This document shows, piece after piece, positions 12,365 to 25,206 of a DNA stretch of 64,000 nt. Source of the DNA: Novosphingobium sp. IK01. GTDB taxonomy: Bacteria > Pseudomonadota > Alphaproteobacteria > Sphingomonadales > Sphingomonadaceae. Each line of letters starts with the position of its first letter. The stretch's first letter is position 1. The notes under the pieces are model-generated. The model searched no databases. It saw only the letters and a program-made list of their open reading frames with translations, and had not been told where the DNA came from. The stretch is taken from NCBI RefSeq assembly GCF_033242265.1, contig NZ_BTFW01000001.1, forward strand, positions 868,001-932,000, in the 5' to 3' direction. The position numbers and the translations under genes were made by a program.

Positions 12365-13333
12365 TCAGTCGCGATGCGCCTGCGCAAAGGCTGCCGCCGC
12401 GCCAAACAGGCCCGGCTGGGGATGGGTGATCAGCTTGACCGGCATCTGGGCCATGATCTGCTCGAACCGCCCCTTGGCGCGAAACCGTTCGGCAAAGCCC
12501 GAGCGCACGAGCGTATCCTTGATGCGCAGGCCCAGCCCGCCGGCCATGACCACCCCGCAGGCGCCATGGGCCAGCGCCAGATCGCCCGCCACGCTGCCCA
12601 GCGACAGGCAGAAGCGGTCGATGGCCGCCGCGGCAAGGCCATCCTCGCCATTGGTGCCCAGCGTCCAGATCGCCTTGTCATCGCGCGGAATGAACGGCGC
12701 GCCCTCGATGGCGGCCAGCGTCTCGTAGATGTCGACGATGCCCGGCCCGGCCACCACACGCTCGACCGAAACCCGGCGATGGCGCTTGCGCAGGCGGGAA
12801 AGGATCGCATCCTCGATCCCGTCGAGCGGCGCATAGTCGACATGCCCGCCCTCGGTCGGCTGGACCTGATAGCCCGCGCCATGGCGCCAGAGCTGGGCCA
12901 CCCCCAGCCCGGTGCCCGGCCCGACGATGCTGAGCACGCCCTCGTCGGGCAGCGGCGTATCGGGGCCCGACAGGTGCAGGAAATGCTCAGGGCCTGCCTG
13001 CGCCACGGCATGGGCGACAGCGGCAAAATCGTTGACGACGACATATTCGTCGCATCCCAGCCGCTCGGGGATCAGCGCGGGGCGAATGATCCACGGGTTG
13101 TTGGTGAACTTGATCACCTCGCCCCCCACGGGCCCGGCCACCGCGATGGCACAGGACGTGGGCAGGCTTCCCCCGTTCTGGCGGCGAAATTCCTGCCAGG
13201 CGAGTTGCAGGCTGGCATGCTCGGCGGTCTTGAGCGTGACCGCCTCGCCCAGATGCACGACGCGCCCGCCCGCCACTTCGGCAAGGGCAAAACGCGCGTG
13301 GGTTCCGCCGATGTCGACGGTAACGAGTTCCAT
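12365..13333 (-). CDS. glk: Glucokinase
   Basis: Protein of 322 residues of the bacterial Glk family, distinct from ROK kinases. It phosphorylates glucose with ATP. Visible are the phosphate-binding N-terminal [12 protein letters not shown], the glucose site with NNPW and VVNDFAA, GPGTGLG, and the C-terminal GGLGLRIKD. The ATG at 13333 has a good GGGAGAG ribosome site 7 nt upstream and is preferred over a TTG 15 nt earlier. It is the last gene of the zwf-pgl-edd-glk operon (31-bp gap after edd) and supplies glucose 6-phosphate to it. Confidence 0.95.
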
Positions 13334-13364
13334 CAATCTCTCTCCCAAATCGTGCCGCAGGGGG

Positions 13365-15184
<1,820 letters not shown>

Positions 15185-15188
<4 letters not shown>

Positions 15189-15829
15189 TCGCTCCAGTAG
15201 ATGGTAACCGGCGGGCCATCGGCGCCGCGCAGGAATTCGGAAACCGGGTAATCGGCGTTGCCCGAAAGAACGTCCTCGATCAAAGCCTTCTTCGCGGCTC
15301 CTGTCACGACAAGGATGATCTCCCGCGTCGCTTTCAGGGCCCGCGCGGTCAGCGTCAGGCGGTCGAACGGGGCTTCGGGCGGCAAGGGGACCGGCGTCGT
15401 GGCGATCACCGTGGCGCCGGGACGGACCAGCGCCTGCATCGTCGGGAACAGCGAGGCGACATGGCCATCCTCGCCCATGCCCAGCCACACGAGATCGAAC
15501 GGGGCCACGCTCGCGCCTTCTTCCAGCCGCTCGAAACTGGCACCGCTGTCACCCAAGGCCGCAAAAAGCTTGCCGAAATTGCTCGCCGGATGGTCGTCGG
15601 GCACGCGGCGGTCGTCGGTCAGGGCCAGGGTCGTGCCGCGCCAGTCCAGCCCCCGCGTCTTGAGCAGGGCAAAGACCTTGAGCGGGGTCGATCCGCCGGT
15701 CATCGCCAGCCGCCTGGGGCCCGGCTTGGCCAGTTCGGCGGCGATCCGGTCGGCCACCGCCGCCGCATCGCCCGGCTGCGCCCAGCGCACGCGCGGATTG
15801 GCCGTCGCGATGACAGCAGGCTCAGTCAT
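15185..15829 (-). CDS. pgl: 6-phosphogluconolactonase
   Basis: Protein of 214 residues of the NagB-like DevB/SOL family. It hydrolyses 6-phosphogluconolactone, the product of Zwf. Motifs: [11 protein letters not shown] (phosphate binding), [16 protein letters not shown], and [13 protein letters not shown] with the catalytic Asp-Gly-His. It is somewhat shorter than typical (about 230-250). It overlaps zwf by 8 nt upstream and edd by 4 nt downstream, so three consecutive enzymes are translationally coupled. Confidence 0.95.
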
Positions 15830-17270
15830 TCCAGCTTCTCCCGTCGCGTTCGGTCAGCGCAATCGCGGCATTGGGGCCCCAGCTTCCGGCGGCATAGGGC
15901 TTGCATTCCAGATCGTCGCGCGCCCAGACGGCACGGATCGCATCGATCCACTTCCACTGCGCCTCGACCTCGTCGCGGCGCACGAACAGCGTCTGCTCGC
16001 CCTCGATCAGGTCAAGCAGCAGGCGTTCATAGGCGATGCGGCGGCGCGCCTTGGCAAAGGCGGTGGTGAGCGAAAGATCGAGGTTCACCTCGCGCAGGAC
16101 CACCCCGCCGCGGTCGAGGCCGGGTTCCTTGGCCATGACCTGAAGGCGCACGTATTCCTCGGGCTGGAGGCGGATCACCAGCCGGTTGGCGCGCAGCCTA
16201 GCGCCGCGTTCGGCAAAGATGTTGTGCGGCACCTGCTTGAACTGCACGACGATTTCCGAGCGACGCTCGCCCAGACGCTTGCCGGTGCGCAGATAGAAGG
16301 GCACCCCCTGCCAGCGCCAGTTCTCGATATGGGCCTTGATCGCCACGAACGTCTCGGTGTCCGAAGGCTGGCCCAGATCCTCGACATAGCCGGCCACGCT
16401 CTCGGCCCTGACCGCGCCCGAGCGATATTGCCCGCGCACCATCTCCTCGGCAGCCACGGGGCGCAGCGCGCGCAGGACCTTGACCTTCTCGTCGCGGATC
16501 GAGGTCGCGTCGAAATCGCGCGGCGGCTCCATCGCGGTGAGCGCGAGAAGCTGGAGCATGTGGTTCTGCACCATGTCGCGCAGCGCGCCGGTATCGTCGT
16601 AGAAGCCCTTGCGCCCTTCGAGGCCGACCGTCTCGCTGACCGTGATCTGCACATGGTCGATATTGCCCGCGTTCCACAGCGGCTCGAACATCATGTTGGC
16701 AAAGCGCAGCGCCATCAGGTTCTGGACGGTTTCCTTGCCCAGATAGTGGTCGATGCGGAAAATCTGGTTCTCGGCAAAACCGGCTGCCACCGCGTCGTTG
16801 ATGCGGCGGCTCGACGCCAGATCGTTGCCCAGCGGCTTTTCAAGGCCGATCCGCACATTGGCATGGGCCAGCCCCGCGCGGCGCAGGCCTTCAATGGTCG
16901 GCTCGAACAGCGCGGGCGCGGTCGACAGGAAAATCGAGAGCCCGCCGCTCGTATCGCCCAGCTTGTCGGCGAGCGCGGCAAAGCCGTCGATGTCCGAGGC
17001 ATCGAGCGTCTGGTATTCGAGGCGGTCGAGGAAACTGGCAAGCTTGGTCTCGTCCTTGCGGTCGGCGGGCAGGAACTCGTCGAGCGCCAGCCGGGCAAAT
17101 TCGCGGAATTCGGCATCGTCATGCGCCGAGCGCGCGGTCCCGACAAAGCGCAGACCCGGCGCGATCAGGCCATCCTCGTGCAGGGCATAGAGCGAGGGCA
17201 AGAGCATCCGGCGCGAAAGATCGCCGGTCGCGCCGAAAAGCAAAAGCGCAGAACAACTGCCGTCGGCCAT
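15822..17270 (-). CDS. zwf: Glucose-6-phosphate 1-dehydrogenase
   Basis: Protein of 482 residues. It oxidises glucose 6-phosphate to the lactone with NAD(P)+. The N-terminal Rossmann motif is LLFGATGDLSRRMLLPSLY, the active-site peptide is RIDHYLGKETVQNLM with catalytic His/Lys, and EKPLGND is also conserved. It heads the zwf-pgl-edd-glk operon, which contains glucose-catabolic genes in an order reminiscent of the Zymomonas zwf-edd-glk operon. A palindromic operator candidate lies 108 bp upstream. Confidence 0.97.
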   Translation of the reverse strand: MADGSCSALLLFGATGDLSRRMLLPSLYALHEDGLIAPGLRFVGTARSAHDDAEFREFARLALDEFLPADRKDETKLASFLDRLEYQTLDASDIDGFAALADKLGDTSGGLSIFLSTAPALFEPTIEGLRRAGLAHANVRIGLEKPLGNDLASSRRINDAVAAGFAENQIFRIDHYLGKETVQNLMALRFANMMFEPLWNAGNIDHVQITVSETVGLEGRKGFYDDTGALRDMVQNHMLQLLALTAMEPPRDFDATSIRDEKVKVLRALRPVAAEEMVRGQYRSGAVRAESVAGYVEDLGQPSDTETFVAIKAHIENWRWQGVPFYLRTGKRLGERRSEIVVQFKQVPHNIFAERGARLRANRLVIRLQPEEYVRLQVMAKEPGLDRGGVVLREVNLDLSLTTAFAKARRRIAYERLLLDLIEGEQTLFVRRDEVEAQWKWIDAIRAVWARDDLECKPYAAGSWGPNAAIALTERDGRSWND

Positions 17271-17377
17271 CCCGGATTCTCCTCAAGTTCTGTTGTTTCA
17301 CGTATCATCAACGCGCAAGACCGCAATGCGGCCCCGTCGGCGAGCAGCCCTAGAGCGGGATTGCGCGCGATGCACGC

Positions 17378-17391
17378 TGCATAAGTATGCA
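17378..17391. promoter_or_regulatory. Operator candidate upstream of the zwf operon
   Basis: TGCATA-AG-TATGCA is a perfect 14-bp palindrome 108 bp upstream of zwf. It fits the TGCA-N6-TGCA pattern of the sites flanking the LacI-family gene at 21422. It is the proposed link between sugar signal and Entner-Doudoroff expression; binding has not been shown. Confidence 0.5.
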
Positions 17392-17554
17392 AGACCGCCC
17401 CCAATTTTCAGGCCCGCCTTCCCCTTTTGCAAGCCTCTGCGCCCTGTCCGTCGAAACAGCCATCAAAACACGGAAAAACAGCCAGTTGTTTGCCACAGGT
17501 AATTCGTCTGCAAAGAGGTTGACCCACCGCGCCCACGCCGCCAGAAAATACGCC

Positions 17555-17568
17555 TGAAACCGATTGCA
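17555..17568. promoter_or_regulatory. Operator candidate upstream of fructokinase
   Basis: TGAAACCGATTGCA has one perfect TTGCA half-site and a near-match left half with the same 14-bp spacing as the sites at 21244 and 21276. It is 78 bp upstream of the fructokinase start. A further ATGCA half-site lies just downstream (17576-17580). The 375-bp gap 17271-17645 otherwise holds no gene. Confidence 0.4.
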
Positions 17569-17645
17569 TACCCCCATGCACCACCCCTGACGGGCTCCGG
17601 GGCATACCCATAAAAATCGTGCAAAAACAAGGATGGGAGAGACAT

Positions 17646-18578
17646 ATGACCCAAACCCCCTTATCCAGCGCCCCGCTGGTCGGCGCCATCGAGGCCGGTG
17701 GCACCAAGTTCATCGCGGCCCTGGCCACCGCGCAAGGCGAAGTGCTCGCCCGCGCCCGCATCCCGACCGAAACGCCCGAAACCTGCTTTCCCGCGCTCGC
17801 CGCCTTCTTTGGCGCCGCGCAGGAGCAGCACGGCAAGGCCAGCGCCTTTGGCGTCGCCAGCTTCGGCCCGATCGACATCGACCCGGCCTCGCCCGCCTAT
17901 GGCACCTTCACCACCACCCCCAAGCCGGGCTGGCAGGGCGCGCGCTTTCATGACGTGCTGGCCTCGTTCGGCGCCCCCATCGTCGTCGATACCGATGTCA
18001 ACGGCGCCTGCCTTGGCGAATGGATGAAGGGCGCCGGGCGCGAAAAGGACGGATCGCACTGCCGCACGCTGGCCTATACCACCATCGGCACGGGTATCGG
18101 CACCGGCGTGGTGCGCGACGGGCGTTCGCTGATGGGCATTTCGCACTTCGAGAGCGGCCACATCCCCTGCCCGCACGACCATGCGACCGACCCCTTCCCC
18201 GGCAACTGCCCGTTCCATGGCGATTGCCTCGAAGGGCTGACCTCGGGCCCGGCCATTGAGAAGCGCTGGGGCAAGAGCCTCGACCAGCTGGCCGACGATC
18301 CATCCGCCATCGACCTCATCGGCGGCTATATCGCCCATCTGGCGACAAGCCTCGTCCTGCTCCACATGCCCGACCGCCTGATCTTCGGGGGCGGGGTGAT
18401 GAAGGCGCCCGGCCTCGTGGAATCGGTCCGCCGCCAGACGCAGGCCCGCCTCGCCGGCTATGTCCGCCATCCCCGGCTCGACGCAGGCCTCGAAACCTAC
18501 ATCGTCACCCCCGGCCTTGGCGACGATGCCGGGATCACCGGGGCCATTGCGCTGGCCTGCCAGACCCTCCCCCAATAA
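17646..18578 (+). CDS. Fructokinase, ROK family
   Basis: Protein of 310 residues. ROK signatures are AIEAGGTKFIAALA (ATP phosphate loop), the catalytic Asp region VVDTDVNGACLGEW, TIGTGIGTGVV, and the zinc motif HIPCPHDHATDPFPGNCPFHGDCLEG. The Cys/His spacing is that of ROK fructokinases such as Zymomonas FrkA, so fructose is the likely substrate. The ATG at 17646 has a strong GGGAGAG ribosome site 7 nt away; a GTG 27 nt earlier is possible but poorer. It belongs to the sucrose island and would phosphorylate the fructose released by GH68. Confidence 0.92.
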   Translation: MTQTPLSSAPLVGAIEAGGTKFIAALATAQGEVLARARIPTETPETCFPALAAFFGAAQEQHGKASAFGVASFGPIDIDPASPAYGTFTTTPKPGWQGARFHDVLASFGAPIVVDTDVNGACLGEWMKGAGREKDGSHCRTLAYTTIGTGIGTGVVRDGRSLMGISHFESGHIPCPHDHATDPFPGNCPFHGDCLEGLTSGPAIEKRWGKSLDQLADDPSAIDLIGGYIAHLATSLVLLHMPDRLIFGGGVMKAPGLVESVRRQTQARLAGYVRHPRLDAGLETYIVTPGLGDDAGITGAIALACQTLPQ

Positions 18579-18608
18579 TCAGGCGCTCCCCCGATAAGGG
18601 GAAACATC

Positions 18609-18647
18609 AAAAAGGCCCCGGAAGCATCTGCTTCCGGGGCCTTTTTT
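18609..18647. terminator. Bidirectional terminator between fructokinase and the TonB receptor
   Basis: AAAAAGGCCCCGGAAGC and GCTTCCGGGGCCTTTTTT form a perfect stem with an ATCT loop and a T-run on each strand. It lies between the convergent fructokinase and receptor genes. Confidence 0.9.
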
Positions 18648-18665
18648 GAGCACATGGTCAGTGCG

Positions 18666-21173
18666 TCAGAAGCGATAGCGGACCGAAGCGGTCATCGTCC
18701 GGCCGAGCATGGCCGAATTGTCGAGGATCGCCTGGTTGGCCGCCAGCCCGGCGCTGCCCGGAGCAACGGTCAGCGAACCGTTGTTGGCGCGATAGCCCAG
18801 CGTGTTGAGCAGGTTGTTGACATTGAAGCTCACTTCGAGCCCATCGAGCGGACGCACCTTCACATACCCGTTGAGGAACGTGCTGCCCCGCACGCGATAG
18901 CCCCCGGCGATCTGGAAGTTCGACTGCCCGCTCGCCGAAAGCCCGAACGCGGCGATCCCGGCGTCATAGCTGGGCGAGGCCAGCCAGGTCCAGTCGGGCA
19001 TGGCCACCGGCGTTGCCCCGGTGCCCGCGTTGCGCGAATGGGTGTAGACGACATAGCCATCGAGCGAGAAGCGCCCGGCCGCCACCCCGCCCGATGCCTC
19101 GACGCCATAGGAATGATAGATGGCGTCGATGAAAGGATTTTCCCCGCGCGAGGGCGCCGTGAAGTCGTAGTTGCTCTCCTTGACTTGCGCACGGTAGAGC
19201 GTGACTTCGGCATGATAGCGCCCGCCCAGAAGGCCGCCGCGCTGCTTGATCCCCAGTTCCTGCTGGGTGACATAGTTGAGCGAAAGATGGCTGCCGCCCG
19301 CCGTCAGCTTGCCATCGGCGGTGAAGTTGGCGTTGTTGTAGAGCAGGCGGTCGGCGTTGAAACGCCCGCCCCGGCTCACCCGGACGAACACGCTGGTGCT
19401 CGGGCTCACCTCGTAGAGCGCCCCGAACGACCAGCTGACATAGCCCTTGGCATAATTGAGCACATTGGCCGGGGTCGCACTGGTGTTGTAGGCCGGGACC
19501 GAAGCCGAACCGAGCGCATCGCTCAGCGTGACATTGGCGACCTGCTCATTGGCATAGGCCACCCCGCCCGCCTTGACGGTATCATAGCGCACACTCGCGT
19601 CGAGGTTGAGGCGCCCGATCTGCCCTTCGAGCTGCCCGTAGAGCGCGTCGTTGGTATAGGTCACCGCATAGGACCGCCCGCCACAGCACGCGCCCCACTG
19701 GGTGTTGAGCCCGTTGACACCCATCGCCCCAAGCTGGTTGCCCGCCGCATCGAACAAGTCGAGCGGAACAGGATTGCCAGAACTGTCAAGCGTTTGCGTC
19801 ATGTTGTTGATGCGCCAGTCCATGTCGATCGTCTGGCGCATGTGGAACCAGCCGGCATGGGCATTGATCTTCGCGGTGTTGCCCAGCTCGAACTTTCCGT
19901 TGAGCGTCAGGTCGTTCACGAAGCTGCCCACGTCGCGCATGGTGACATAGGCCTGCGCACCGTTGCTGACGAAGCGCCCGCCATAGATCTCGCCCTGGTT
20001 GGGCCCGGTCGCATAGCGCAAGGTGCCGTCGCCAGCGACCGAACCGGTGGTGGCCTCGCCGGTCCACTGGTTGGCAAACGTGCCGCGCATCGCCGTCCAG
20101 CGCGCCTTGTCGGTCACGGTGAAGGCACGCGAGAATTCATAATGGAATTCGCCGCCGACCGAAGTCACGACCGGGTGGATGCCTTCCATGGGCACCGTGC
20201 GCAGCTGGCCATCGGCATCGAGCACGCGGAAGGTCTGGTTGTAGAGCCCGCTCGACGCATAGCGGCGCGCGTTCACCCCGTCGAACGTCGAGAAACCGGT
20301 GACCTTGTTGCCATCAACCGTTACCAGGCTGGGCATCGAGGTAAAGGTCGGCTCCTTGTCGTCCAGGCGCTTGAAATTGAGGCGGATATAGCCCTTTCCA
20401 TCAGCCAGTTCCTTGGTGATGTTGCCCTTGATCTGATAGCCGCTCTGGGCCTTGTAGGGCAGGTGCGTGGGGCCGTTGCCGTCGATGGCATAGCCCCCGA
20501 CGTGGAAGCGCACGCTGTCCGAGAGATGGCCGCCATAATCGAAATCGACGCGCGTTTCGCGATAGTTGATCGCCTGCGAAACGCCGATCTGGCCGCCGTC
20601 ATGCTCGCCGGTCTTCGAGACATAGTTGATCACCGCGCCCGGCGCCTGGCTCGAAAAGGTCGAGGCCGAACCGCCGCGCACCGCCTCGACCCGGTCGACA
20701 TTGTTGTCGAAGCGCACCCAGTAGTCGTTGTTGCCGAACATGATGTCGCCAAACAGCGTCACCGGCAGGCCGTCTTCCTGAAGGCCGACATATTCCGAAC
20801 CGCCCGTCGAGACCGGAATCCCGCGCACGCCGATGTTCGAGTTGCCGCCCGGCCCTGCGGTATCCTGCACATTGAGGCCGGGGATCGTGCGCAGGACTTC
20901 GGCCTGCGAGCGCGGGGTGAAGGCGATCACCGCATCCTGGTTGATCTGCGAGACGGAAATCGAGGAGAGCCGCGCCGATTTGCCGCTGGCCGCCGCCGTC
21001 ACCACGATCGGGCCGATGTCGGCCACACTGTCACCCGGCGCGCCCGCATCCGGTGCCGCATCCGTGGCCGATGCCGGAGCTTGTGCGGCATCCTGGGCAT
21101 GGATCGGGGTGGCGAAGAGGGCTCCGGCCAGCGCGACAAGCGACGCGCTCGCAAGATGAGCGAAAGGCTTCAT
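18666..21173 (-). CDS. TonB-dependent receptor, probable sucrose/oligosaccharide uptake
   Basis: Protein of 835 residues. The signal peptide is MKPFAHLASASLVALAGALF with cleavage after IHA-QDA. A TonB box-like PIVVTA is followed by the plug domain (about 50-165, with VLRTIPGLNVQDTAG and RVEAVRGGSASTF) and a 22-strand barrel ending in an aromatic residue (RYRF). It should take up a substrate across the outer membrane with energy from TonB. Its place beside a LacI regulator, GH68 sucrase, MFS carrier and fructokinase points to sucrose or fructo-oligosaccharides, as in the Xanthomonas sux locus. The ATG at 21173 is preferred over earlier frame codons because it begins the signal peptide. Confidence 0.92.
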   Translation of the reverse strand: MKPFAHLASASLVALAGALFATPIHAQDAAQAPASATDAAPDAGAPGDSVADIGPIVVTAAASGKSARLSSISVSQINQDAVIAFTPRSQAEVLRTIPGLNVQDTAGPGGNSNIGVRGIPVSTGGSEYVGLQEDGLPVTLFGDIMFGNNDYWVRFDNNVDRVEAVRGGSASTFSSQAPGAVINYVSKTGEHDGGQIGVSQAINYRETRVDFDYGGHLSDSVRFHVGGYAIDGNGPTHLPYKAQSGYQIKGNITKELADGKGYIRLNFKRLDDKEPTFTSMPSLVTVDGNKVTGFSTFDGVNARRYASSGLYNQTFRVLDADGQLRTVPMEGIHPVVTSVGGEFHYEFSRAFTVTDKARWTAMRGTFANQWTGEATTGSVAGDGTLRYATGPNQGEIYGGRFVSNGAQAYVTMRDVGSFVNDLTLNGKFELGNTAKINAHAGWFHMRQTIDMDWRINNMTQTLDSSGNPVPLDLFDAAGNQLGAMGVNGLNTQWGACCGGRSYAVTYTNDALYGQLEGQIGRLNLDASVRYDTVKAGGVAYANEQVANVTLSDALGSASVPAYNTSATPANVLNYAKGYVSWSFGALYEVSPSTSVFVRVSRGGRFNADRLLYNNANFTADGKLTAGGSHLSLNYVTQQELGIKQRGGLLGGRYHAEVTLYRAQVKESNYDFTAPSRGENPFIDAIYHSYGVEASGGVAAGRFSLDGYVVYTHSRNAGTGATPVAMPDWTWLASPSYDAGIAAFGLSASGQSNFQIAGGYRVRGSTFLNGYVKVRPLDGLEVSFNVNNLLNTLGYRANNGSLTVAPGSAGLAANQAILDNSAMLGRTMTASVRYRF

Positions 21174-21243
21174 GCAGGTACTCTCCCATGACATGTCCCC
21201 GCATCGTTCTGCGGGAATCGATATATTTTGTGATAGACACCGA

Positions 21244-21257
21244 TGCAATCGTTTGCA
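21244..21257. promoter_or_regulatory. LacI-type operator, proximal to the TonB receptor
   Basis: TGCAA-TCGT-TTGCA has perfect 5-bp arms. It lies 71 bp upstream of the receptor start and 165 bp upstream of the LacI gene, in their shared divergent promoter region. Its centre is 32 bp (about three helical turns) from that of the second site at 21276. Confidence 0.65.
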
Positions 21258-21275
21258 ACGCCGTTTTTCGCCTTA

Positions 21276-21289
21276 TGCAAAGGATTGCA
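21276..21289. promoter_or_regulatory. LacI-type operator, distal site
   Basis: TGCAAAGGATTGCA is the core of a longer 18-bp palindrome, TATGCAA-AGGA-TTGCATA (21274-21291), with perfect 7-bp arms. Together with the site at 21244 it lies between the divergent receptor and LacI genes and would allow autoregulation. Confidence 0.65.
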
Positions 21290-21421
21290 TAATACCTGTA
21301 CTCGCAAGCCGTGTGGCACCGGGAGATTGCAGCACGCCATCCCTTTCCGAAAAGCAAACGGGCCTTTAAGGAACGCTGCCATGCCCTTGCTTTCACAGGC
21401 CCTGAGGCTACAAGCAAAAGC

Positions 21422-22468
21422 ATGACCGACACGGCAGCCGACAAGAGCACGAGAGAGGGAAACAAGCCGCGCATCCGCAACATTGCGGAGCTGGCACGCA
21501 TGGCTGGCGTTTCAGCCGGGACGGTGTCGCGCGCACTGGCCGGCAAGAGCCTGGTCAACGCCGAGACCCGCGAGCGCATCCAGACCATCGCGCGCGAACA
21601 TGGCTTTCGCCCCAACCAGATGGCGCGGCGCCTGCGCACCCAGCGCACCGGGGTGATCGGCGTGGTGATCCCGCTCGGGCACGAGCGGCGCCAGCACATT
21701 TCCGACCCCTTCTTCATGACCCTGTTTGGCCACCTCGCCGATGCCCTGACCGAAAGCGGGCACGACCTGATGCTCAGCCGCGTGATCCCCGGCGACGATG
21801 AATGGCTCGACCGCATCGTCGATTCCGGCATGCTCGACGGCGCGCTGGTGATCGGCCAGTCCAACCAGATGGAAGCCATCGAGCGCGTGGCCGAACGCTA
21901 TCGCCCGCTCGTCGTCTGGGGCAGCCACCGCCCCGGCCAGATCCACTGCACGGTGGGCACCGACAACCGCGAGGGCGGGCGCCTGGCTGCCCAGCGCCTG
22001 ATGGACCAGGGCATGCACCACCTCGCCTTCTTCGGCGATACCGGGGCGCCAGAAATCGCCGACCGCCTCCACGGCGCGCGCGATGCAGTGACGAAGGGCG
22101 GCGGCAGCTACCGCATCGCCGCCTTCCCCACCCATCTTTCGAACGACGAAATCCCCGAGCAGGTCGCCGCCCACCTCGAAAAAATGGGCTCGGGTTTCGA
22201 CGGGATCGTCTGCGCGTCCGACGTGATTGCGATGACCACCTTGCGCCTGCTCCACGAGCGCGGCGTGCGCGTGCCGGTCGACATCGCGGTGACCGGCTTC
22301 GACGATGTGCCCCTCGCCACGCAGACCGTCCCGCGCCTGACCACGATCCGGCAGGACATCGCGAGCGGCGCGCGCGCCATGGTCGACCTCCTGATGCAGC
22401 GCATCGCCGGGGTCGATACGCCTTCGTGCGTGATGCCGCCCGAACTGGTCATCCGCGAAAGCGCCTGA
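21422..22468 (+). CDS. LacI-family transcriptional regulator of the sucrose island
   Basis: Protein of 348 residues. The N-terminal helix-turn-helix (RNIAELARMAGVSAGTVSRA, about residues 20-39) and hinge helix (NQMARRLRTQRTG) are classical. The remaining 280 residues are the periplasmic-binding-protein-like sugar domain, with FDGIVCASDVIAM and VTGFDDVPLA near the C-terminus. It is divergent from the TonB receptor and convergent with GH68. ATG at 21422 is chosen because the HTH then begins about 18 residues in, although the frame is open to 21311. It probably binds the TGCA-N6-TGCA sites; the effector may be sucrose, fructose or a phosphate derivative. Confidence 0.93.
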   Translation: MTDTAADKSTREGNKPRIRNIAELARMAGVSAGTVSRALAGKSLVNAETRERIQTIAREHGFRPNQMARRLRTQRTGVIGVVIPLGHERRQHISDPFFMTLFGHLADALTESGHDLMLSRVIPGDDEWLDRIVDSGMLDGALVIGQSNQMEAIERVAERYRPLVVWGSHRPGQIHCTVGTDNREGGRLAAQRLMDQGMHHLAFFGDTGAPEIADRLHGARDAVTKGGGSYRIAAFPTHLSNDEIPEQVAAHLEKMGSGFDGIVCASDVIAMTTLRLLHERGVRVPVDIAVTGFDDVPLATQTVPRLTTIRQDIASGARAMVDLLMQRIAGVDTPSCVMPPELVIRESA

Positions 22469-22505
22469 AAGAGGGGCCGCAAGCCCCTATTTCATCAAAA
22501 TTTTG

Positions 22506-23666
22506 TTATTGGACGATACTCACCCGGTCACCATCGAAGGCCAGCTGGAACACCGGCGCGGGCGCCCCGCCGAACTGCGCGCGCCGCAATTCGGGATGGT
22601 CGGCCAGCCCGCGCCCTTTCATGCCCCAATAGTCGATGAAGCTCCACACCGCGCCCTCGCCGGTCACCCACCAGCTATAGGTCTGCCCCGCCTCGCCCGC
22701 CGGGTTGGGCGCGACCAGTCCGCCCCCATTGAGCGCGCGCCACGGGCCGGTCAGGGCCGGCGCCACCATGCCATAGAGCCCGTTGGGCCCGGCCAGCGCA
22801 CCGGGGGCAAACGTATGCCGCTGGGTCGACCAGAACAGGTAATAGAGCCCGTCGCGCAGGACCACGCAGGGGCGCTCCATCTCGTTGTTGGTGCCGATCG
22901 CCTCGACCAGCGGATCATCGAGCACCCAGCCTTGCGGCGTTTTCGTGGCAAGGCCGACAAGGCCGTTGTGGCTGTCCTGCGTCCAGGCCGCGCTGCCGGT
23001 AAAGACGATATGGGCAAGGCCGGTCGCCGGATCACGAAACCACGCCGGATCGCGGAAGGCCTTGATCGAGCCGGGCACGGGGTTGGCGATCTCCTGCCGG
23101 TCGGCGACATAGCGCATCCCGTCGGCCACCACGATCTCGCGCGGCGTGCCCCAGTGCCCCGGCCCCTGTGCGCCCATCCGCCCCGGCACTTCGAACAGGC
23201 GCTGCTCGTAGGAAAAGACCCCGCCACGCCGCCCGGCCACGGTGTAGAACAGGCAGACGGAAACCCCGTCGTCCATCAGGACCGCGCTCCCCGCCCATTC
23301 ACGCGTGCCGGGGCTGAGCCCGTCGGGCAGGGCATTGCCATGATCCCGCCAATCCCCCGTCGCGCCTTGCGAGAGCAGGCGGATGCGCGCGACATCGTGG
23401 CGCTCGTGCGGATCATCGAAGCAGGGCGCGCTCAGGAAGAACCACCAGGTGCGCCCCTCGTGAACGACCGTGCGCCCGTCCTCGTGCGCCAGCGGCCAGC
23501 AGTCCCACACGTCGAACCCCGGCAGGATCGGCACGACATCGGCCGCCGTCACCAGCGGGATTTCGGGCACGGGGTCATAGCCATGAGGCTCCCAGCGCGA
23601 GGGCATGCGGGAAACAATCGTTTGCATCGACAGAGTCGGCGAAGCAGGCGTGAAATCGGCAGTCAT
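22506..23666 (-). CDS. Glycoside hydrolase family 68 enzyme (sucrase/levansucrase type)
   Basis: Protein of 386 residues. The three GH68 catalytic residues are visible: nucleophile Asp55 (VWDCWP), transition-state stabiliser Asp206 (AFRDP), and acid/base Glu264 (NEMERP). EWAGSA and the C-terminal NGLYGMV...LNGGGLV also match Zymomonas levansucrase/SacC. The enzyme transfers fructosyl units from sucrose to water or fructan. The length is close to the signal-less Zymomonas enzymes, and no signal peptide is seen. The start is 29 bp after the MFS carrier stop, so the two form an operon. An operator-like sequence lies inside the 5' coding region. Confidence 0.9.
   Translation of the reverse strand: MTADFTPASPTLSMQTIVSRMPSRWEPHGYDPVPEIPLVTAADVVPILPGFDVWDCWPLAHEDGRTVVHEGRTWWFFLSAPCFDDPHERHDVARIRLLSQGATGDWRDHGNALPDGLSPGTREWAGSAVLMDDGVSVCLFYTVAGRRGGVFSYEQRLFEVPGRMGAQGPGHWGTPREIVVADGMRYVADRQEIANPVPGSIKAFRDPAWFRDPATGLAHIVFTGSAAWTQDSHNGLVGLATKTPQGWVLDDPLVEAIGTNNEMERPCVVLRDGLYYLFWSTQRHTFAPGALAGPNGLYGMVAPALTGPWRALNGGGLVAPNPAGEAGQTYSWWVTGEGAVWSFIDYWGMKGRGLADHPELRRAQFGGAPAPVFQLAFDGDRVSIVQ
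23613..23626. promoter_or_regulatory. Intragenic operator-like site near the start of the GH68 gene
   Basis: AACAATCGTTTGCA has the same spacing, core (TCGT) and right half as the site at 21244. It falls 40-53 bp inside the GH68 coding region. Roadblock repression or a looping partner for the site at 25193 would fit, but the match could be by chance. Confidence 0.35.
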
Positions 23667-23695
23667 GCAGACCTCGTGAAGTAAAAAGGGACGCG

Positions 23696-25111
23696 TCAGA
23701 GCGCCGGAGAGGAAGACGGCCGCCCCTCGCGCACCCACAGCACGCTCAGGGCCGCCAGAACGAGGCTCGCGCCACAGGCCGAAAGCATCCGGCCCGGATC
23801 GCCGCCGAGCGCGCGCTCGTAGAGGCCCAGTCCAAGATGCAGGAAGCCCAGGTCCAGCTCGCTGGTCACCAGCGCAAAGAGCACCATCGGGATCACGATC
23901 ATCATGTTGAAGATGCCCATGTAGACCCCGGTGCGCTCGGGCGGGATCGAACTCGACAGGATCGCATAAGGGTTGCCCATGATGCTCCCCCAGGCCAGCC
24001 CGACGCCGACGGCGGGAACGAACAGCCAGGCCTTGTCGGTCACATGGGGCAGCGCCAGCATGCCAAGGCCGCCCGCCAGCAGGCACAGCGCATGGAGCGG
24101 CCCCGGCCCGATCCGGCGCACCAGCGGCACCATGGCAAAGGCCGCGACGAAGGCCACGCCATTGTAGAACGCCGCGATCTCGCCATTGGTCAGGACCGCG
24201 CTGTGAAACGCCGAACTGTGCGGATCGGCGGTGTGATAGACCCCCCGCCCGATCGCATACGTCACATAGAGCCAGTAGCCCCACATCCCCGACCACTGGA
24301 ACAGGCTCATCAGCCCGAGCTTGCGCATGGCGGCGGGCATCGTGGCAATCGCATCGACGATTTCGGCAAGGGCCGCCCCCAGCCCGCGGGGGGCCGCGGC
24401 GATCCGCGCACGCTCGGCGGGTGTCAGCGGCAGTTCGGGCACGCGGCGCACCGACCACACGATGGTCACCAGCGACAGCGCCGCCCCGACCATGAACACC
24501 ACCCGCACGGTATAGGGAATGCCATGGGCATCGACCCAGTCCCGGTTCATCCCCAGCGCCACCAGCAGCGACGGGGTAAGGAACGCCAGCATCTGGGCAA
24601 GGCCGGTAAACGCGCTCTGCGCGAGAAAGCCGACCTGCCGCTGCGCCGGGGCCAGACGGTCGGACACATAGGCGCGATAGGGCTCCATCGTGATGTTGTT
24701 GCCCGCATCGAGCAGCCAGAGCAGCGAGGTGGCCATCAGCAACGAGGACGAGAGCGGCATCGCCATCAGCCCGAGCGCGCAAAGCACCGCCCCGACAAGG
24801 AAATAGGGCGTGCGCCGCCCCCAGCGCCCGTCCGTCCGGTCCGACAGCGCGCCGATCAGCGGCTGGACCAGCAGCCCGGTCATCGGCCCGGCCAGCCAGA
24901 GCAGCGGCAGTTGCGCCTCGTTGGCGCCCAGATAGCTGTAGATCGGCCCCATGTTGCCCTGTTGCAGGCCGAAGCTGAATTGCAGCCCCAGGAAACCGAG
25001 ATTCATTTCGAGAATGCGGCCCAGCGAAAGATGCGGCCGCGCGGTGCCTTCCGCGGGGCACGATACGCTGCCCACCGCCTCTCCTGATGCCACATTGCGG
25101 GCACTGTCCAT
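23696..25111 (-). CDS. MFS sugar transporter, probable sucrose/H+ symporter
   Basis: Protein of 471 residues with about 12 hydrophobic segments. The loop SDRTDGRWGRRTPYFLVGA after TM2-3 is the signature of the glycoside-pentoside-hexuronide/sucrose symporter group, and MEPYRAYVSDRLAPAQR is also typical. It should import sucrose or an oligosaccharide with protons. The ATG at 25111 is preceded by GGGGAGAG; a GTG directly before it is less likely. It is the first gene of the carrier-GH68 operon, with an operator candidate 82 bp upstream. Confidence 0.9.
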   Translation of the reverse strand: MDSARNVASGEAVGSVSCPAEGTARPHLSLGRILEMNLGFLGLQFSFGLQQGNMGPIYSYLGANEAQLPLLWLAGPMTGLLVQPLIGALSDRTDGRWGRRTPYFLVGAVLCALGLMAMPLSSSLLMATSLLWLLDAGNNITMEPYRAYVSDRLAPAQRQVGFLAQSAFTGLAQMLAFLTPSLLVALGMNRDWVDAHGIPYTVRVVFMVGAALSLVTIVWSVRRVPELPLTPAERARIAAAPRGLGAALAEIVDAIATMPAAMRKLGLMSLFQWSGMWGYWLYVTYAIGRGVYHTADPHSSAFHSAVLTNGEIAAFYNGVAFVAAFAMVPLVRRIGPGPLHALCLLAGGLGMLALPHVTDKAWLFVPAVGVGLAWGSIMGNPYAILSSSIPPERTGVYMGIFNMMIVIPMVLFALVTSELDLGFLHLGLGLYERALGGDPGRMLSACGASLVLAALSVLWVREGRPSSSPAL

Positions 25112-25192
25112 CACGCTCTCCCCTCGGGCTCACCGGCCCTTCATGCCCTTTTTCGAGCAGATTCTTCCATGGCATATCAGAATGGCGCTGAC

Positions 25193-25206
25193 AACAATCG
25201 ATTGCA
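25193..25206. promoter_or_regulatory. Operator candidate upstream of the transporter-GH68 operon
   Basis: AACAATCGATTGCA contains the perfect 10-bp palindrome CAATCGATTG and the TTGCA half-site of the LacI operators. It lies 82 bp upstream of the MFS start, where it would overlap or flank the promoter. Confidence 0.5.

Follow-up and report, generated by a model that had tools for sequence, protein, structure and literature searches.

A sucrose-island operator and an Entner-Doudoroff promoter box differ in motif and point to two regulons meeting at one sphingomonad locus

Genes of the Entner-Doudoroff (ED) pathway have been linked to several LacI-family regulators in Alphaproteobacteria. In excerpts of PMC4052901, the LacI-family proteins GluR, GapR and PckR are predicted to regulate zwf/edd genes in three alphaproteobacterial lineages, and in excerpts of PMC11323563 proteomics shows CceR to control ED genes in Paracoccus. 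With these precedents, LacI-type control of the ED pathway is not unusual for Alphaproteobacteria, contrary to a first-pass annotation of the DNA analysed here. GluR of Caulobacter acts through a palindrome on zwf-pgl-edd-glk as well as pykA, gnl-gfo, ppdK and sucABCD (PMC4052901, in part), and our locus has the same zwf-pgl-edd-glk layout and a palindrome. However, the gluR gene is described there as lying just downstream of glk, and the GluR palindrome as 20 bp long, whereas our palindrome has a 12-bp core and no LacI gene is found at that position in our locus. A second likeness, in target genes, is to GapR/CceR of Rhodobacteraceae, a LacI-family regulator of zwf, edd, fba, pckA and other central genes whose own gene usually lies away from its targets (excerpts of PMC4052901 and PMC11323563), and to PckR of Rhizobiales, also of the LacI family, with zwf-pgl-edd, fba, pckA and mdh-sucCDAB as predicted targets. 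PckR differs in that it is described as restricted to Rhizobiales (PMC4052901, in part). PhaR/AniA of Sinorhizobium, according to excerpts of PMC12542648, weakly binds immediately upstream of the zwf −35 box. The neighbouring sucrose genes resemble the systems of ScrR, CscR and SuxR, in which a LacI-family gene stands beside those for a transporter, a kinase and a sucrose enzyme, but the island here has a GH68 enzyme and a TonB receptor, unlike those systems as given in the same part of PMC4052901. In the open-licence literature, a scope outside which RegPrecise and most subscription papers lie, we found no description of the sphingomonad box regulon or of the sucrose-LacI shift in Blastomonas presented below; both would, if so, be new.

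The window, that is, the whole stretch of 64,000 nucleotides analysed here (G000:C1:868001-932000), comes from a 3.77-Mb genome of the Novosphingobium clade, and its Zwf and LacI proteins are 100% identical to those of locus L001 (Novosphingobium capsulatum). The operon zwf-pgl-edd-glk lies on the minus strand and is followed by a sucrose-type island of ROK kinase, TonB receptor, LacI, GH68 and MFS transporter genes:

12368..13348, minus strand: glk, glucokinase (PF02685)
13368..15224, minus strand: edd, phosphogluconate dehydratase (TIGR01196 over cut-off)
15188..15829, minus strand: pgl, 6-phosphogluconolactonase (TIGR01198 over cut-off)
15825..17270, minus strand: zwf, glucose-6-phosphate dehydrogenase (TIGR00871 over cut-off)
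17646..18578, plus strand: ROK-family kinase, fructokinase-like (PF00480; ScrK model NF045550 below cut-off)
18666..21173, minus strand: TonB-dependent receptor (PF00593, PF07715)
21422..22468, plus strand: LacI-family regulator with helix AGVSAGTVSRAL (helix-turn-helix and sugar-binding domain, PF00356 and PF13377, over cut-off)
22503..23666, minus strand: GH68 levansucrase/invertase-type enzyme (PF02435)
23696..25114, minus strand: MFS transporter resembling sucrose/proton symporters (PF07690; TIGR01301 below cut-off)

The genome has five LacI genes, and only the one at 21422 is inside the window; against its product, curated models of known regulators all scored below cut-off. Levansucrases are usually secreted. 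By eye, the GH68 protein (22503-23666, start MTADFTPASP) has no evident signal peptide, and the transporter gene adjoins its own, so that sucrose cleavage may be intracellular.

The first-pass annotation had placed five sites, at 17378 (zwf), 17555 (fructokinase), 21244 and 21276 (receptor/LacI) and 25193 (transporter), under a single pattern, TGCA-N6-TGCA. All five sequences are where it had put them, with the pattern exact at 17378, 21244 and 21276, one mismatch at 17555 and two at 25193 (AACAATCGATTGCA). They represent two motifs, however, not one; the site at 17555 is weak (8.1 bits), and a fourth strong sucrose-type site, in the 5' end of the GH68 gene, had been missed. Counting the loose pattern proved uninformative and was dropped as evidence: with at most one mismatch it is found 15 times in the window versus 28.9 ± 5.2 times in shuffled sequence, and is thus rarer than in shuffles, and such matches are common, with 32 exact places in the genome versus 8 for the reversed control. 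We used two matrices instead. Matrix A was built from 29 sites in those loci of orthologous sucrose LacI genes where a site could be seen, excluding the window's own genome and L001, and matrix B from 35 zwf boxes, excluding L001. Their sites in the window, with the presumed promoter element of zwf, are:

17350..17353, minus strand: CTAG, presumably belonging to the −10 region, 25 bp beyond the end of the zwf box (TA in 36/36 loci, following G in 32/36)
17379..17390, minus strand: zwf box, motif B, GCATACTTATGC (25.7 bits by matrix B versus −3.3 by matrix A; invariant in 36/36 aligned loci)
17555..17568, plus strand: weak motif A-like site before the fructokinase gene (8.1 bits)
21244..21257, plus strand: predicted motif A operator of the receptor/LacI pair (25.2 bits; kept in L002, L005 and L010)
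21276..21289, plus strand: predicted motif A operator with a GG centre, 32 bp from the first of the pair (23.5 bits; kept in L002, L005 and L010)
23613..23626, plus strand: motif A site within the GH68 5' end (21.5 bits; counterparts in L001, L002, L005, L010, L025 and L028)
25193..25206, plus strand: predicted motif A operator before the transporter gene (26.6 bits; counterparts in L001, L010, L025 and L028)

Across the 64-kb window, matrix A ranked the sites at 25193, 21244, 21276 and 23613 highest, followed by the fructokinase site and the next background place (5.7 bits), and gave the zwf site its negative score. Matrix B singled out the zwf site, with 2.7 bits for the next place and negative scores for every sucrose site. 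Because the two matrices do not cross-match, the window holds two motifs, motif A (TTGCAAnCGnTTGCAA), which marks the sucrose island, and motif B at zwf, which had been merged into one. As GCAW half-sites are common to both, weak cross-binding may occur in the cell. The sites had also been described as CG-centred palindromes, a description that fails at two of them: the zwf site reads GCATA-CT-TATGC on the minus strand, with a centre of CT or CA in 36/36 loci and not the CG of a LacI-type operator, and the centre at 21276 is GG.

For the sucrose genes, the proposal of a local LacI regulon stands, without its extension to zwf. A mostly CG-centred LacI-type regulon covering the island is supported by the four sites of 21.5–26.6 bits, with only 8.1 bits at the fructokinase gene, and by the recurrence of operator pairs in relatives. 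In L001, L002, L005 and L010, which have the same gene order, both LacI/receptor operators are kept 32 bp apart although the flanks have diverged, and pairs 21–23 bp apart are present in seven other loci (L087, L088, L089, L091, L092, L097 and L106); both spacings are near whole helical turns. The fructokinase site has no counterpart in the three compared relatives of the same gene order (L002, L005 and L010), and conservation at 23613-23626 may be owed to the GH68 protein sequence. Under the thresholds used, 12 of 29 LacI loci from other genomes (L087-L115), mostly more distant ones, showed no motif A site. TGCAANCGNTTGCA has four further exact places in the genome, each marked inside a predicted ORF, the ORF call being doubtful for at least one (L192), and no recognisable sucrose gene lies beside any of the four. 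We propose that the local LacI would bind motif A at its own gene and the receptor gene, before the transporter gene and perhaps in the GH68 gene, with the pair 32 bp apart presented on one face of the helix. In the absence of a releasing sugar, which is presumably sucrose or a product, it would hold sucrose uptake and cleavage repressed; we assume repression, ligand and occupancy from the family. Motif A-like sites of 18–21 bits were also seen ∼2.4–3.3 kb upstream of zwf in L007, L008, L014, L015, L016, L018, L020 and L031, near glycoside hydrolases that we take to be GH97 and GH13, and the surroundings of zwf look like a hotspot of sugar-use genes.

Conservation of the zwf box was followed in the best 80 of 133 loci encoding Zwf relatives, of which 38 carry an exact GCATACWTATGC in the 400 bp ahead of zwf: L048, L051 (Sphingorhabdus) and 36 loci of the Novosphingobium clade. 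The 36 loci, picked by closeness of Zwf, comprise 33 so named and 3 metagenome-assembled genomes (MAGs) with broader names, and L021 and L026 come from one MAG. Although the flanks have diverged, the box is invariant in 36/36, and the TG after it (positions 16–17) is nearly so (T in 36/36, G in 35/36). If the CTAG belongs to the −10 region, the centre of the box lies near −42, a common position for activators. L048, L051 and L052 share this box/TG/TA layout, with one change in the box of L052. Among 297 genomes of the order, the combined box, TG and TA pattern was found at 12 places, 11 of them before zwf, and the control gave 0. As the strict promoter pattern matched only 8 of the 20 same-genus genomes in this order-wide scan, the box is not genus-wide.

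Beyond zwf, GCATANNTATGC occurs before other central-carbon genes. In the window's own genome it is found four times (control, 0): before zwf, before a class I fba next to pgk, before sucC, and upstream of an oprB-type porin gene at a distance of 0.55 kb. Among the matches listed for the genus (G004, G008, G010, G012, G013, G019, G026, G033, G088, G089, G090 and part of G084 left out), it precedes a class I fba in at least seven more genomes, the class being checked by family model for L127 and recognised by sequence for the others; in G030 it also precedes tpi and an aldolase of another type, and in G080 and G024 it precedes pckA. The sucC site was seen in the window's own genome only. Among these matches, one candidate operator is thus shared by ED and other central-carbon genes: it stands at zwf and at a class I fba in several genomes, at pckA in two and at tpi in one. 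Many further genus matches lie inside predicted genes, called in fetched stretches by a GC-skew heuristic, and are presumably due to chance. With one mismatch allowed, motif B has 38 places in the genome, exact ones included, versus 15 for the reversed control. Annotation of 30 places (the one on contig C4 left out) puts 18 within predicted genes and shows no prominent regulator gene. In G024 and G080 (L123 and L129), a motif B site lies between pckA and the divergent gene of an OmpR-type response regulator, presumably ChvI-like. The sequence GCATACGTTTGC stands before both ATP synthase operons of the window's genome (L222, C1:1159131; L224, C1:1358528), ahead of genes that we take to be atpH and atpI. 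We discarded these operons as further motif B targets: exact GCATACGTTTGC is present in 8/49 genus genomes, with neighbours seen in the window's genome only.

From the motifs, their conservation and the adjoining genes, we infer a start site for zwf-pgl-edd-glk and, for its regulator, binding, sign and ligands. The promoter would carry an invariant 12-bp box, GCATAC[T/A]TATGC, with its centre near −42 relative to the presumed start and read by a regulator other than the sucrose LacI within a central-carbon regulon like those of GluR, CceR/GapR or PckR. Fructose-bisphosphate aldolase would belong to this regulon too, joined in some genomes by PEP carboxykinase and triose-phosphate isomerase. 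Two separate regulons very probably meet at this locus, one of the LacI with motif A at the sucrose island, and one of a different regulator with the zwf box in central carbon metabolism. The original reading, in which the sucrose LacI also binds at 17378 and controls zwf-pgl-edd-glk in its own genome, draws on the TGCA ends and spacing that make the zwf site resemble motif A, on the zwf operon and the island being neighbours, and on a motif A site before zwf in Blastomonas. We regard it as very improbable for the window, as the zwf site scores −3.3 bits with the sucrose matrix and its box belongs to the other motif, kept with or without a sucrose cluster: the LacI-GH68-MFS cluster is in the fetched flank of 6/36 box loci, and the complete cluster is absent there in 30/36 (upstream flanks being short for L011, L024 and L032). 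L051, too, keeps the box in a genome with two LacI proteins, neither of which has the sucrose-type recognition helix. A chance palindrome, for which one could cite how common loose TGCA-N6-TGCA matches are, is scarcely conceivable given the 36/36 conservation amid diverged flanks and an order-wide pattern with 11/12 places at zwf and none in the control.

Two kinds of protein come into question as the reader of the zwf box in a regulon separate from that of the sucrose LacI. A non-LacI activator, perhaps of a class acting from about −42, is a serious possibility, if slightly short of probable: the box is fixed near −42 ahead of poor −35 and −10 sequences, and the same layout recurs in Sphingorhabdus-group loci without the LacI considered next, but we found no candidate protein, and the other alphaproteobacterial regulators of the ED pathway given in excerpts of PMC4052901 are of the LacI family. 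As a LacI-family reader, we considered the unlinked LacI encoded at G000:C1:3328074-3329093 (L084; helix SQSTVSRAL). The neighbour of its gene is, we assume, gloB-like. Homologues of at least 59% are present in 32 of the 34 box-bearing Novosphingobium-clade genomes searched, and in a hand tally a site at zwf, fba, pckA or tpi accompanies the gloB-linked LacI in 12 of 14 fully listed genomes, versus 0 of 15 without it, where one site (L180) has no clear neighbour. In its sister group (helix SQPTVSRAL), GCATACGTATGC-like palindromes with at most one mismatch are present in 20/20 fetched upstream regions, versus 1/1000 mononucleotide shuffles, and in three of four further loci of the group (none at L282); they suggest half-sites related to the zwf box, no more. 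However, box-bearing L051 and the MAGs of L018 and L021 lack the gloB-linked LacI, and L048 has only a 37% homologue; of 26 orthologue loci scanned, 25 have no box ahead of the LacI gene itself; the centre of the box is not CG; and the co-occurrence is confounded by descent. Overall, we consider this LacI a doubtful reader.

Two other proteins were rejected as readers. A LacI type widespread in sphingomonads has the helix SLQTVSRV, which none of the five LacI proteins of the window's genome has, and PhaR has a core motif, YGCRNYGCR, that differs from GCATANNTATGC (excerpts of PMC12542648). The SQPTVSRAL-helix LacI genes with an upstream GCATACGTATGC-like palindrome (L343-L362, L278, L280 and L281) form a side observation; the palindrome is probably the autoregulatory operator of a separate sugar regulon.

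The idea of a sucrose LacI acting on zwf may nonetheless hold in the sister genus Blastomonas, where it has computational support. Among the best 80 of 133 Zwf-relative loci, six (L040, L041, L043, L047, L049 and L061; named Blastomonas, or Sphingomonas for L041 and L043) have TGCAATCG[AT]TTGCA starting 120–133 bp before zwf, with 20.9–30.6 bits by matrix A and the exact site in 6/6; no other locus among these 80 has a motif A site of at least 14 bits within 400 bp upstream of zwf. An orthologous LacI is encoded in 5/5 Blastomonas genomes followed (that of L047 left out), so that operator and regulator coincide at the level of sequence. In G138 and G139, the LacI gene (product 50–51% to the window's) stands together with transporter, receptor and GH68 genes, and paired operators lie 23 bp apart (28.4 and 13.6 bits; 23.8 and 15.6 bits). 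In G127, G128 and G129, it lies near spoT with no sucrose gene within 11 kb; sucrose genes may be present elsewhere in these genomes. The five Blastomonas LacI proteins fall into a single supported group next to the Novosphingobium sucrose LacI proteins, and the three orphans group inside it. With dN/dS values between orphans of 0.06–0.08 (simple Nei-Gojobori count) at synonymous differences of 0.42–0.45, the orphan LacI genes are kept under purifying selection. Near these three genes no motif A site of at least 14 bits was found, and thus no sign of autoregulation.

We lean, by a little, towards a model where in Blastomonas the sucrose-type LacI took over the ED operon and, in three genomes, outlived the adjoining sucrose genes for a central-carbon role, its founding targets having been lost. 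The window's lineage would represent the other state, with zwf under an independent invariant box read by another central-carbon regulator. The analysis tells apart two probable regulons that share half-sites and a locus, and it gives for sphingomonads a candidate central-carbon operator that can be tested, along with a list of predicted targets; the two lineages would show a local sugar regulator before and after its move to the central pathway. In L040, L041, L043 and L047, a motif B-like sequence, GCATAGCTATAC, is seen just downstream of the motif A site and is degraded in L049 and L061; motif A and motif B boxes may therefore stand side by side before zwf in these four loci.
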